Below the pieces are notes generated by a model. That model had not been told where the DNA came from. It searched no databases and saw only the letters and a list, made by a program, of their open reading frames with translations. Of a stretch of 64,000 bases of DNA, positions 22,049 through 26,562 are shown in pieces. The translations under genes and the position numbers were made by a program. Numbering within the stretch: the stretch's first letter is position 1; the number at the start of each line of letters is the position of its first letter. Source of the stretch: Pusillimonas sp. T7-7 (GTDB lineage Bacteria; Pseudomonadota; Gammaproteobacteria; Burkholderiales; Burkholderiaceae_B); assembly GCF_000209655.1 (NCBI RefSeq), contig NC_015458.1, positions 1,364,001-1,428,000 on the forward strand. Reading direction: 5' to 3'.

Positions 22049-22318
22049 CTATTCCTGCTCGCCGAATTTGTTGTCGAACAAGGAGCGGATATCGTCCAGC
22101 GCCTGTTCCGCATCGTCACCAACCGCATCCACCTTGACGGTGACGCCCAGTCCGGCCGCCAGCATCATGACGCCCATGATGCTTTTGGCATTAACCCGCT
22201 GCGCACCACGGGCAATGAAGATTTCGCTTTTATACCTGCCGGCCAGCTGGGTCAGCTTGGCCGCAGCCCGCGCATGCAAACCCAGTTTATTGCTAATGAC
22301 GATGTCGGTAGATGGCAT
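22049..22318 (-). CDS. ptsH: HPr phosphocarrier protein
   Basis: 89 residues with phospho-His15 in NKLGLHARAAAKL and Ser46 in AKSIMGVMMLAA, the position targeted by HPr kinase in organisms that have it (no hprK is in this window). It carries phosphate from EI to the EIIA of the Man family encoded just upstream. It is 28 bp before ptsI on the same strand. Confidence 0.96.
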   Translation of the reverse strand: MPSTDIVISNKLGLHARAAAKLTQLAGRYKSEIFIARGAQRVNAKSIMGVMMLAAGLGVTVKVDAVGDDAEQALDDIRSLFDNKFGEQE

Positions 22319-22365
22319 AAGGATTTCAGTTTTTTATAGGAATGATGAGTACGTTGACACGCGGC

Positions 22366-22773
22366 TCAGCACTTGCATTCATTATCGGCGTTGACGATGC
22401 CCCTTAGGGCGCCAAGCTGAACATTCTTGCTGAGCTCCTCGGGATTATCTTGTTGCTCGGTCAATGCCTTGAGCACCATGCATAAATTGGTGCCGGTGAT
22501 CAGATGCGCGCTGAAGCCCCGCTCAGTAGCCAGTTTAATCGCTCGTTTGGCAATATTGAATGGCGTCGCGCCAAATATATCGCAAAGAACCAATGTGGCC
22601 TGATCGGGTGTTTGCTGCAACAGGTCGGCCAGACGGTCCACCTGCGCTTCTGGGTCGCAATCGGGCGCCACATCGAATACGGTCAGGTTCGCCTCGTGGC
22701 CAAGCACATGCTCGGCGCATTCTGCAAACGACGAACCCAAAGGCTCGTGCATGACCAGAACAATGCGTGTCAT
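22366..22773 (-). CDS. PTS EIIA component, mannose family (regulatory)
   Basis: 135 residues starting MTRIVLVMHEPLG, with the expected phosphohistidine at His9 and the Man-family core LVLCDIFGATPFNIAKR. In many betaproteobacteria this EIIA acts with HPr and EI without a sugar channel and is thought to be regulatory. The start was placed at ATG 22773, one base after the gshB stop (TGATATG), implying coupling; the longer frame lies inside gshB. The C-terminus has an unusual CKC ending. Confidence 0.92.
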   Translation of the reverse strand: MTRIVLVMHEPLGSSFAECAEHVLGHEANLTVFDVAPDCDPEAQVDRLADLLQQTPDQATLVLCDIFGATPFNIAKRAIKLATERGFSAHLITGTNLCMVLKALTEQQDNPEELSKNVQLGALRGIVNADNECKC

Positions 22774-22774
22774 A

Positions 22775-23764
22775 TCAGCTTGCACCCACACCCGCAGTCT
22801 GTTCGCCGCCAGCAACAGCCTGCTCAAGGGCTGCAGCAAAGCAGTCAGCCACGTCAAATCCGGTTTGTTCGGTAATTTCAACAAAACACGTGGGGCTGGT
22901 GACGTTGACTTCAGTCAGGTAATCGCCAATCACATCAAGCCCAATCAACAGCAGCCCACGCCCGGCCAAACCCGCAGCGACGGTTTCGGCGATTTCAATA
23001 TCGCGGGCCGTCAGGGGCTGGGCAACACCGCGCCCGCCCGCAGCCAGGTTGCCGCGGGTTTCGCCGGCCAGCGGAATACGCGCCAGTGCGTAAGGAACCG
23101 GCTTGCCGCCTATCAGCAAAATACGCTTGTCGCCCTTGACGATTTCAGGAATGTAGCGCTGAGCCATGATGGAGCGCGTACCGTTGTCGGTGAGCGTTTC
23201 GAGGATGGCGCCCAGGTTGGGCTCTTCGGTACGCAGGCGGAAAATTCCAGTACCCCCCATGCCGTCCAGCGGCTTGACGATGACATCGTGGTGCTTGGCA
23301 TGAAAGGCACGTAAACGAGCCATATCACGCGTGACCAGCGTAGGCGAAGTCAATGAGGCAAACTCGGTGATGGTGAGTTTTTCGGGATGATTCCGTATTG
23401 CAGCGCCTGAATTGAATACTCGTGCTCCCTGGGTCTGGGCGTACTCCAGCAAATGCGTGGCGTATACATATTCCATATCGAACGGCGGATCCTTGCGCAT
23501 CACCACGGCATCGAATTCCGCCAGCCGGATTTCACAAGGCGCGGCGCGCTCAAACCACCAGGCGTGCTCATGCAGATCAGCGCCCTGCGCAAGGCCAATG
23601 CCGGTAGACACAGCCATGACGACGCCTTCGTCGATATACAGGCCCTCTTGATAGGCAACACTTAGCGTATGACCGCGGGCTTCCAGCGCGCGCATCATTG
23701 CAACTGAAGAGTCTTTGTAGGCCTTTAGTGTGGGTAAAGGGTCAATAACAAACAATACATGCAT
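22775..23764 (-). CDS. gshB: Glutathione synthetase
   Basis: 329 residues. MHVLFVIDPLPTLKAYKDSS matches the N-terminal substrate domain; the ATP-grasp fold follows with VIVKPLDGMGGTGIFR and EVNVTSPTCFVEI. It ligates glycine to gamma-glutamylcysteine using ATP. gshA, which I recall next to gshB in several relatives, is absent here. The start was set at ATG 23764 by homology. The gene follows infC by 70 bp, which contain a 7-bp inverted repeat but no terminator. Confidence 0.96.
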   Translation of the reverse strand: MHVLFVIDPLPTLKAYKDSSVAMMRALEARGHTLSVAYQEGLYIDEGVVMAVSTGIGLAQGADLHEHAWWFERAAPCEIRLAEFDAVVMRKDPPFDMEYVYATHLLEYAQTQGARVFNSGAAIRNHPEKLTITEFASLTSPTLVTRDMARLRAFHAKHHDVIVKPLDGMGGTGIFRLRTEEPNLGAILETLTDNGTRSIMAQRYIPEIVKGDKRILLIGGKPVPYALARIPLAGETRGNLAAGGRGVAQPLTARDIEIAETVAAGLAGRGLLLIGLDVIGDYLTEVNVTSPTCFVEITEQTGFDVADCFAAALEQAVAGGEQTAGVGAS

Positions 23765-23783
23765 AAAACACACCTGCCTGCGT

Positions 23784-23811
23784 GCTCTTGCCAACGTCTG
23801 CTGACAAGAGC
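23784..23811 (-). repeat. Hairpin between infC and gshB
   Basis: GCTCTTG (23784-23790) and CAAGAGC (23805-23811) are perfect 7-bp inverted arms with a 14-nt loop in the infC-gshB gap. No U-run follows, so read-through from infC into gshB is expected; it may stabilise or process the mRNA. Confidence 0.45.
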
Positions 23812-23834
23812 GCTAAAGGAATACAGACCTGAGC

Positions 23835-24377
23835 CTATTCGGCTGCTTTACCCGCCACGGCTTTTTTGCGAGGCGCAAGCACCATGACCATTTGGCGGCC
23901 TTCAAGCTTGGGCATGGCTTCAACCTGGCAAAGCTCGGCCAGATCGTCACGCACCCGCTCCAGAACCCGCATACCGAGTTCCTGGTGGGCCATTTCACGC
24001 CCACGGAAACGCAGGGTTACCTTGGCCTTGTCGCCCTCTTCGATGAAACGGCGCAAATTGCGCAGCTTGACTTGATAGTCGCCTTCGTCGGTGCCAGGAC
24101 GGAATTTGACTTCTTTTACCTGGATGACTTTCTGCTTGGCTTTCGCCTCTTGTTGGCGTTTTTGTTCTTGGTATTTGAACTTGCCATAATCCATCAGGCG
24201 GCATACGGGCGGCGCGGCATTGGGTGCGATCTCGACCAGATCGACTTCGTGCTGCTCTGACAACTGGAGCGCTTCAGAGGTTTTTACTACCCCCAGCTGC
24301 TCGCCGTCTACTCCAATAAGACGCACCTCGGGGATACGGATTTCACCATTGATGCGATGGGCTTTTTCGGTTGCGAT
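23835..24377 (-). CDS. infC: Translation initiation factor IF-3, starting at an ATC codon
   Basis: 180 residues, the same length as E. coli IF3. The frame includes the conserved N-terminus [21 protein letters not shown], which lies upstream of the first ordinary start codon (GTG 24326). The only codon with both correct position and a ribosome site (AGGAG about 8 nt upstream) is ATC at 24375-24377; no ATG, GTG or TTG occurs in frame between there and thrS. IF3 genes are known for non-AUG starts that IF3 itself discriminates against, giving autoregulation. It follows thrS by 29 bp. Confidence 0.93.
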
Positions 24378-24406: not shown

Positions 24407-26353
24407 TCAGGCCTGGCCGGATTCGTCACCATTATGACGGGTGGCGATCTCTTGTTGCAGGCGCACAGTAAAGTCGTTCAGCGACATGACGCCAAGATCA
24501 ACGCCGCCACGCCCCCGTACCGCTACTTGGCCGGATTCACGCTCTTTTTCGCCTACCACCAGAATGTACGGTATTTTTTGCATACTGTGCTCACGAATTT
24601 TACGGGTGATTTTTTCGCCACGCAAATCGGAAAAGGCTCTAAACCCTTGTTTTTTCAGGCCTAGCGCGACTTCAGCGGCATAATCAGCCGACGATTCGGA
24701 TATACAGCATACAACCGCATGCTCGGGAGCAAGCCACACAGGCATGGCGCCAGCGTGGTTTTCAATCAACATGCCAATAAAACGTTCGAAAGATCCCAGA
24801 ATGGCCCGATGCAACATAACCGGCGTACGGCGCTGGTCAGTGGCGTCGACGTACTCGGCGCCCAGGCGTTGCGGCATGGAGAAATCAACCTGTATGGTAC
24901 CGCACTGCCAGTGGCGGCCAATGGCGTCTTTCAAGGTGTATTCGATCTTTGGTCCATAGAAAGCGCCTTCGCCAGGCGATACCTCGTATTCGCAGCCCGT
25001 ACGGCTCAGGCTTTCCATAAGTGCCTGTTCCGCCTTATCCCAAACCTCGTCCGAGCCTATGCGTTTTTCGGGGCGGGTAGCCACCTTGTACAGAATTTCG
25101 GTAAAACCGAAATCGGCATACACCTTTTGCAGCAAGGCGGTGAAGTCGGCGCATTCGTCCTGCAATTGATCTTCGGTGCAAAAGATGTGGCCGTCATCTT
25201 GAGTAAAGCCGCGCACCCGCATCATGCCGTGCAAGGAACCGGAAGGCTCATTGCGGTGGCATTGCCCGAACTCGCCATAACGTATGGGAAGTTCGCGATA
25301 AGAATGCAAACCGGCGTTGAAAATCTGCACATGCCCGGGGCAGTTCATGGGTTTCAGGCCATAAACACGGTTCTCGGACTCGGTGGTGAACATGTTTTCG
25401 GCGTAGTTGTCCCAGTGGCCGGTTTTCTTCCAGAGCGACAGGTCCAGGATTTGCGGCGCCTTGACTTCCTGATAGCCATTATCGCGGTACACAGAGCGCA
25501 TGTACTGCTCGACCTGCTGCCACAAAGTCCAGCCCTTGGGATGCCAGAAAATCAGGCCGGGCGCTTCATCTTGAAAGTGGAATAAATCCAACTCGCGGCC
25601 GATCTTGCGATGATCACGCCGCTCGGCCTCTTCCAGCATGGTGAGATAAGCGCTTTGCTCTTCTTTGCTGGCCCAGGCTGTTCCGTAAATGCGCTGAAGC
25701 ATTTCGTTGTTGCTGTCGCCACGCCAATAAGCGCCAGCGACTTTCATCAGCTTGAAGACCTTGAGCTTGCCGGTGGACGGCACATGCGGGCCACGGCACA
25801 GGTCGATGAAATCGCCTTCGCGGTACAGGCTGATGGCTTCGTTGGACGGAATCGATGCAATGATCTCGGCCTTGTAATGCTCGCCTATGCCTTTGAAATA
25901 TTCCACAGCGTCGTCACGCAGCCACTCTTCGCGCGTAACAACCTCGTCTTTCTTGGCCAGCTCGGCCATTTTCTTTTCGATGGCTTCCAGGTCTTCAGGC
26001 GTGAACGGACGCTTGTACGAAAAATCGTAGTAAAAGCCGTTGTCGATTACAGGCCCTATGGTGACCTGCGCATCGGGAAACAAGGACTTGACCGCATAAG
26101 CCAGCAAGTGGGCGGTGGAATGGCGGATCAGATCCAGGCCATCGGCATCTTTGGCGGTGATGATGGCCAGTTTTGTGTCTTGCTCGATCACGAAGCTGGT
26201 ATCGACCAGTTTCGTCTGTCCGTCTTCTGTTGTTATACGCCCTGCCAGCGCGGCACGACCCAGGCCCGTTCCTATGGAGTGAGCCACATCGCTGACCGCA
26301 ACGGGGCCTGAAAACTCGCGTTGCGAACCGTCGGGCAGTGTAATTTGAACCAT
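24407..26353 (-). CDS. thrS: Threonyl-tRNA synthetase
   Basis: 648 residues with all domains: TGS (about 1-62), editing domain with the [12 protein letters not shown] zinc-type motif (about 75-220), class II core including [12 protein letters not shown] and [21 protein letters not shown], and the C-terminal anticodon-binding domain. The start was set at ATG 26353 ([10 protein letters not shown]) behind AGGA; the ten preceding codons are leader. The leader contains a terminator hairpin and a Thr-rich short ORF, described separately. Confidence 0.97.
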
Positions 26354-26370
26354 AGAACGTCCTGAAATGC

Positions 26371-26395
26371 AAAAACGCGGCACTAGCCGCGTTTT
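26371..26395 (-). terminator. Attenuator-type terminator in the thrS leader
   Basis: On the minus strand AAAACGCGGC (26395-26386), loop TAGT, GCCGCGTTTT (26381-26372) plus one further T form a perfect 10-bp stem ending in five U. It lies 18 nt before the thrS ATG, inside the 5' leader, so it would stop transcription before thrS unless disrupted. Confidence 0.8.
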
Positions 26396-26437
26396 GGGAA
26401 TATTGTTTTGCTAGTTAGCTAATAAACAGTACGCGGC
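26386..26437 (-). promoter_or_regulatory. Possible antiterminator in the thrS leader
   Basis: On the minus strand GCCGCGT (26437-26431) is complementary to ACGCGGC (26392-26386), the left arm of the thrS leader terminator, so the two pairings exclude each other. The loop between them can add a TGTTT/AAACA helix. The upstream strand starts 5 nt after the stop codon of the short Thr-rich ORF, where a ribosome at the stop would cover it. Confidence 0.65.
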
Positions 26438-26442
26438 GACAG

Positions 26443-26478
26443 CTAGAAATGCCAAGTCGTAGTTCGCGCAGTGCTCAT
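26443..26478 (-). CDS. Putative thrS leader peptide rich in threonine
   Basis: An 11-codon frame, ATG to TAG, reading MSTARTTTWHF. Four of 11 codons are Thr, three of them consecutive (ACT ACG ACT). It lies just upstream of mutually exclusive antiterminator and terminator stems in front of thrS, the layout of ribosome-stalling leaders such as thrL or pheL. No ribosome site is visible; the nearest promoter would start the RNA at or near the ATG, so a leaderless start or a promoter further upstream is needed. Expression is an inference. Confidence 0.6.
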   Translation of the reverse strand: MSTARTTTWHF

Positions 26479-26481
26479 GAG

Positions 26482-26510
26482 TCAATATAAATAAAGTACA
26501 AGTTGTTCAA
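26482..26510 (-). promoter_or_regulatory. Candidate promoter for thrS
   Basis: A minus-strand TTGAAC (26505-26510) serves as -35. It is followed by TATATT (26484-26489, 15-nt spacing) or TATTGA (26482-26487, 17-nt spacing) as -10. The first choice puts the transcript start on the ATG of the leader peptide; the second puts it 3 nt inside. Spacing or sequence is imperfect in both, so a more distal promoter is possible. Confidence 0.4.
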
Positions 26511-26562
26511 GTGTAACACCTGTGGCGACTATGGCCTCTGTATAGCCCATAAATTCACATAA

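Follow-up and report, generated by a model that had tools for sequence, protein, structure and literature searches.

The gene for threonyl-tRNA synthetase, thrS, is encoded on the minus strand of the window (the whole stretch of 64,000 nucleotides analysed here) and is followed by infC, as assigned by Pfam. After infC, a glutathione synthetase gene and then the PTS genes for EIIA, HPr and enzyme I are found (window 22052-24326, minus strand), in place of the rpmI-rplT pair that comes after infC in E. coli. Upstream of the thrS leader, a tRNA-Val(GAC) gene lies on the opposite strand.

The leader contains a short ORF rich in threonine, whose stop codon is followed after 5 nt by the sequence GCCGCGT (strand 2) and then, between the ORF and thrS, by an intrinsic terminator composed of a perfect 10-bp hairpin, with the loop TAGT between the arms AAAACGCGGC and GCCGCGTTTT, and of a U run reaching 26371, 17 nt ahead of the thrS ATG (26353). 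All of these minus-strand parts (Thr ORF, GCCGCGT, terminator arms, U run and thrS) had been described in a sequence-only reading of this DNA and were found where it had placed them (Table 1). The terminator was absent from the list of the pattern scanner, though it is plain in sequence and fold. A search with a 20-mer of the leader, allowing up to three mismatches, gave a single match in its own genome, the locus itself.

Table 1. Features of the thrS leader and of the gene that it precedes (window positions; the family set is defined in the text)
Feature	Position	Strand	Basis
Extended -10 promoter element TGTTACACT (predicted)	26518-26510	minus	counterparts in 33/65 family-set leaders
Leader ORF MSTARTTTWHF and stop (11 codons; ATG at 26478, TAG at 26445-26443; Thr at codons 3, 6, 7 and 8)	26443..26478	minus	sequence; frame control
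Putative regulatory Thr codons ACT ACG ACT	26463-26455	minus	in leader ORF
Strand 1, in the ORF: TGCGCG (26470-26465) and CGAC (26459-26456)	26456..26470	minus	predicted fold; strand-1 swap test
Strand 2, putative antiterminator strand GCCGCGT	26431..26437	minus	0/100 shuffles as good; swap test
Strand 3, terminator left arm AAAACGCGGC	26386..26395	minus	sequence and fold
Strand 4, terminator right arm GCCGCGTTTT (26381-26372) and end of U run	26371..26381	minus	sequence and fold
Shine-Dalgarno-like AGGA of thrS	26360..26363	minus	sequence
thrS, threonyl-tRNA synthetase, putative regulated gene	24407..26353	minus	Pfam TGS, tRNA_SAD, tRNA-synt_2b, HGTP_anticodon

The Thr ORF by itself is weak evidence, since among the 480 ATG ORFs of 8-20 codons present in the window 10 have at least four Thr and two have a run of three (TTT). 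The case for a putative attenuator is carried by the comparison among relatives, where it goes far beyond chance.

Conservation and translation of the leader peptide

Regions upstream of thrS were compared among four genomes of the genus, 81 family genomes (out of 200 searched) that represent each of 43 genera at least once, 80 named loci that were the best among the matches listed, 80 loci from 50 further families in the order (150 genomes searched) and 40 loci of other orders of the class (66 genomes searched). The best-matching named loci belonged to Neopusillimonas, Achromobacter and Bordetella, followed by Herbaspirillum, Ralstonia, Pandoraea, Polaromonas and others; these names point to an Alcaligenaceae-like family and to Burkholderiales as the order. 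The 81 loci from family genomes, together with 15 named loci added by thrS similarity, are here termed the family set; one of these 15 (L048) carries the name of another group. For the distribution among relatives, a leader was counted where an ATG ORF with R-T had two or more Thr in five codons and a terminator behind it. Diverged leaders escape this rule (L159, L139 and, in f3 and f22, those of the P-L-T and P-P-T types), and the doubtful loci L124, L131 and L215 may have passed it. The count of 84/110 given by a first leader finder was too high, because a tRNA gene gave false calls (L020, L023, L042). A later finder (131 loci) kept the doubtful rows L061, L175 and L206, and L144 with a wrong hairpin; the doubtful rows stayed in the shuffle test, strand swaps, codon counts and distribution rule, and identical entries were merged. 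For alignment A1, 15 redundant or doubtful loci were dropped by name, and 34 of the 54 prepared family sequences were included, leaving out the Bordetella/Achromobacter type and divergent ones.

The reading frame was examined at loci carrying CGAACT 60-300 nt upstream of thrS. The CGA-ACT frame was open to an ATG within 20 codons in all 53 non-redundant loci of the family set, against 1 and 2 for the other two frames, and in 55 of the 62 other loci, against 5 and 3. Thr codons among the four following CGA-ACT numbered 148, 1 and 6 in the three frames for the family set and 145, 3 and 2 for the others. The first Thr codon was ACT in 55/65 family-set and 53/62 other leaders, while at position +2 after CGA the Thr codon was ACG in 31, ACC in 12, ACT in 9 and ACA in 3 (n=65); in seven ORFs of the window, CGA makes up 4% of the Arg codons and ACT 13% of the Thr codons. 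The amino acid is thus kept with synonymous change; conservation of the Thr codons across relatives is what the sequence-only reading had proposed to check. The presence of CGA in 65/65 and 62/62 leaders is by construction, as the later finder demands CGAAC; when ORFs were picked by Thr richness alone, CGA preceded the Thr run in 28/36 outside the family and in 19/57 inside, where the Thr run often begins ahead of the Arg. Two indels are present in the ORF in alignment A1 (L017 and L116), each of 3 nt.

Searching for a run of three identical residues in four, followed by a terminator, gave Thr in 61/92 cases of the family set, the next amino acid being Ala with 4; outside the family Thr was found in 11/80 and Val in 9/80, and outside the order in 1/40 and 3/40, respectively, by a rule too strict to pick up leaders with two Thr. 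Outside the family, L175 and L227 among the 11 Thr cases look like tRNA-gene read-through, which is also suspected for the Val cases. A chance ORF was rejected by the frame and amino-acid controls. Leader peptides of relatives include MTTTRTTTRHF (L005, same genus), MNSTRTTRRQI (L028), MFFPLARTTTRNFRPMSR (L039, Achromobacter), MTPRTTTEVFERR (L058, Herbaspirillum), MTPRTTSEMLTGL (L078, Acidovorax), MIQAPRTTTASERQ (L090, Ralstonia), MFKRTTTTRISR (L222, f27) and MAVRTTTTHP (L244, f51).

No Shine-Dalgarno site precedes the leader ORF in the window sequence, as the sequence-only reading had rightly remarked, and a Shine-Dalgarno-like 4-mer is present in only 14/65 family-set leaders versus 53/62 outside. 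Frame, synonymous change and 3-nt indels favour a translated leader, the window leader being without such a site. The earlier placement of the RNA start at or near the leader ATG is, on the contrary, probably wrong: an extended -10 element lies upstream, so that the transcript start is predicted near 26503. Its family-set counterparts are found 29-54 nt ahead of the start codon, and outside the family set only one is found among 62 leaders; a start at the ATG was rejected on these grounds.

Pairing of the strands and position of the ribosome

The predicted fold of the whole leader (-36.4 kcal/mol) contains the terminator as well as a pairing of strand 1 with strand 2 and its flanks; compared with shuffles (mean -30.1, z -1.69, 15/200 as good) the excess in stability is only moderate. 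The mutually exclusive antiterminator, a duplex of 7 bp between strand 2 and strand 3 (the terminator's left arm), was better than 100/100 spacer shuffles.

When strand 3 was swapped among 36 distinct types, its own pairing with strand 2 was better by 1.39 kcal, and 0/2000 permutations were as good; the corresponding values were 3/2000 for the family set alone (17 types) and 65/2000 outside the family (21 types). The strand-1 swap gave 0/2000 overall, 6/2000 in the family set and 169/2000 outside. Alignment A1 yields no compensatory changes, because strands 2-4 hardly vary among its 34 rows. Of the compensatory stem changes that had been suggested as a check, co-variation across types was recovered and changes inside the alignment were not. 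The classical attenuation layout put forward in the sequence-only reading is supported by the conservation of the Thr codons, by the strand co-variation and by the 3-nt indels of the ORF.

The effect of the ribosome was modelled with its leading edge assumed to lie 12 nt downstream of the A-site codon's first base. For the window locus, the modelled pairing of strand 3 with upstream sequence was 0.23 with no ribosome and 0.20 with a ribosome at the stop codon, against 0.99 when the ribosome stalled at the first Thr codon that follows CGA. Of the 131 loci, 91 had a modelled pairing more than 0.1 higher under stalling than at the stop, and 9 had one more than 0.1 lower; this count is biased by the greater length of RNA that stalling leaves free, so that shuffles are the fair control. 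In this shuffle test (122 rows) the gain upon stalling fell in the top 5% in 36/61 leaders of the family set and in 7/61 of the others, 3.1 being expected in each; the classical geometry therefore has good support within the family and is not established outside it. For the family, it is accordingly a well-supported prediction of the model that the antiterminator is freed to a greater degree by a ribosome stalled on Thr than by one that has reached the stop codon; beyond the family, the modelled switch is barely supported. In leaders such as L078 and L093, the RNA following the stop (GTTCGCG) can pair with CGCGAAC inside the ORF, which suggests that leaders of this type switch through strands 1 and 2.

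Distribution among relatives and other explanations

Leader and terminator together were found in 28/43 genera of the family, in 13/50 other families of the order and in 0/40 loci outside the order. When 300 genomes of the order were searched for an 18-mer of the MTPRT type, with at most one mismatch, 34 had it, each as a single copy (reversed control, 0); in 12 of the 34, those with a listed thrS start, it was located about 115-200 nt upstream of thrS. Stems kept without a Thr ORF, named in the sequence-only reading as a finding that would speak against it, were indeed seen, but in a minority: a terminator above threshold without leader is present in 9/43 family genera, whereas 6/43 have neither. 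The CGCGGC-type hairpin is plainly kept without leader in g17, g20, g27 and g42; hairpins in small AT-rich genomes may be due to chance. Before thrS of L036, L042, L043, L122, L132, L136 and L150 this hairpin is present and both the Thr ORF and strand 2 are gone, a condition read as decay of control since the hairpin stays; the terminator-only relatives are thus possible decay stages of the attenuator.

Other variants were also observed. L159 (genus g15) has a diverged version, with the short ORF MNRNVTQTT followed by GGTTGCGTTT; this stretch is able to pair along its full length with AAATGCGACC, the arm of the terminator, both sequences being unlike the family type. In L199, L200, L201, L222, L244 and L245 a same-strand tRNA gene (tRNA-Val by look) is directly upstream of the leader; the tRNA and thrS may therefore be co-transcribed in these loci, and the tRNA transcript, too, may be terminated at the attenuator. 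A second full-length threonyl-tRNA synthetase gene, 54-57% identical, is carried by G230, G274 and G313. Taken over the sampled genomes, the putative attenuator is widespread and probably old in Burkholderiales, and reduced or lost in some lineages.

The occurrence of the hairpin without ORF in several relatives, in some close behind a tRNA gene (L043, L132), would also fit a plain terminator, which stops incoming upstream transcription (that of the tRNA gene in some relatives) or keeps thrS at a low and constant level, the Thr ORF having no regulatory role; in the wider order, moreover, the switch geometry is barely above shuffles. This explanation appears very unlikely to us, as the Thr frame and the co-variation of strands 2 and 3 persist over long distances, and the position of the window tRNA gene on the opposite strand is against read-in from it.

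E. coli thrS is the textbook case of a synthetase repressing its own translation through tRNA mimicry, ThrRS binding to a tRNA-Thr-like hairpin of the leader and blocking translation of its own mRNA. A hairpin shaped as that before thrS of E. coli K-12, which we take to be the ThrRS operator, is indeed frequent in the class outside the order, where it was found in 15/40 loci versus 0/172 inside, and the adjoining [AG]CCACTG box was found in 17/40 versus 0/172; this contrast is descriptive, because the 40 loci were known when the pattern was drawn up and the E. coli stem has GATC where the pattern asks for GGYY. Among the loci outside the order, L253, L256, L261, L269, L277, L289 and others have an E. 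coli-like hairpin with a CGT, GGT or TGT loop near the thrS start. A stricter anticodon-loop hairpin occurred in 5/40 loci outside the order versus 2/80 and 0/92 inside, these being no more than stray. Control of the same gene from its own leader is what the two systems have in common, whereas the E. coli operator acts on translation and its pattern is missing from 172/172 upstream regions of the order, on which basis it was rejected here. In addition, only 17 nt separate terminator and thrS ATG in the window, and the frame conservation would go unexplained; this type of control appears still more improbable than a plain terminator. In the simplest history suggested by these sequences, the attenuator would have arisen, and the operator disappeared, in the order or on its stem.

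The least credible explanation is a translation-independent RNA element (for example a T-box, or an unknown riboswitch) with CGAACT as a conserved RNA motif: CGAACT is tighter than the peptide requires, given the preference for ACT as first Thr codon, but the later Thr codons vary synonymously, the frame control is also against an RNA-motif reading, and window positions 26300-26560 matched nothing in Rfam 15 at E up to 1, so that T-box and Thr_leader (Rfam) were both rejected. At the gathering score, only tRNA was found by Rfam in the window and 11 relatives.

Proposed regulation of thrS and its known counterparts

We consider it very likely, from the sequence comparison and the modelled geometry, that the thrS leader is a ribosome-mediated transcription attenuator, which probably turns up thrS when charged Thr-tRNA is short. 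Starting from the computed parts, their conservation, the reading frame, the co-variation and the within-family geometry, we infer transcript start, translation, termination and threonine response as follows. The transcript would begin near 26503, and a ribosome behind the RNA polymerase would read the 11-codon leader. With ample Thr-tRNA, the ribosome would come to the stop codon with its leading edge over most of strand 2 or, alternatively, would depart and let strand 1 bind strand 2; in either case strand 2 would be occupied, strand 3 would pair with strand 4 and transcription would end. With scarce Thr-tRNA, the ribosome would stall on ACT ACG ACT, covering strand 1; strand 2 would be free to pair with strand 3, no terminator would form and thrS would be transcribed.

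Attenuation as a mechanism is known in kind. In E. coli, pheM-pheST is a leader-peptide attenuator of an aminoacyl-tRNA synthetase operon, and the window locus resembles it in having a short ORF rich in cognate codons, alternative hairpins, an intrinsic terminator and a synthetase gene downstream; here the amino acid is threonine and the gene thrS, in another bacterial group, and no sequence relation is claimed. The thr operon leader of enterobacteria (Rfam Thr_leader) also senses Thr via a leader peptide; unlike the present one, it controls threonine biosynthesis, and the window region has no Rfam match at E up to 1. In Streptomyces lividans, according to PMC8079986, a short ORF termed thrL precedes thrS and has been proposed as an attenuator. 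It is likewise a short ORF ahead of thrS, but it belongs to Actinobacteria and is described there as leaderless, with two Thr in 18 residues and no clear terminator.

As for the literature, a Thr leader before thrS in Proteobacteria was not found in searches over 5.39 million open papers. The available portions of a survey of premature terminators (PMC2965389) and of a paper on leader peptides and reinitiation (PMC4833913) do not mention thrS and threonyl-tRNA synthetase, respectively. The 2004 attenuator survey by Vitreschak and colleagues, cited in PMC8079986, could hold a prediction. The leader is real and conserved, its kind is that of the classical attenuators, and as far as searched it is new for thrS in Burkholderiales.

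More speculatively, and as a possibility that we do not favour, Burkholderiales as a group may have swapped feedback through a ThrRS operator for attenuation, so that charged Thr-tRNA is sensed in place of the synthetase level, and the strongly kept CGA-ACT pair may be a built-in slow step by which ribosome and RNA polymerase stay in register and the sensitivity is set. A large group neighbouring that of E. coli seems to run thrS through a leader peptide that senses charged tRNA. Should this hold, it would be a clear replacement of one regulatory mechanism by another for one gene in one class, with intermediates still visible, such as terminators without leader and diverged leaders, and a leader missing from Rfam 15 could be annotated in many genomes.
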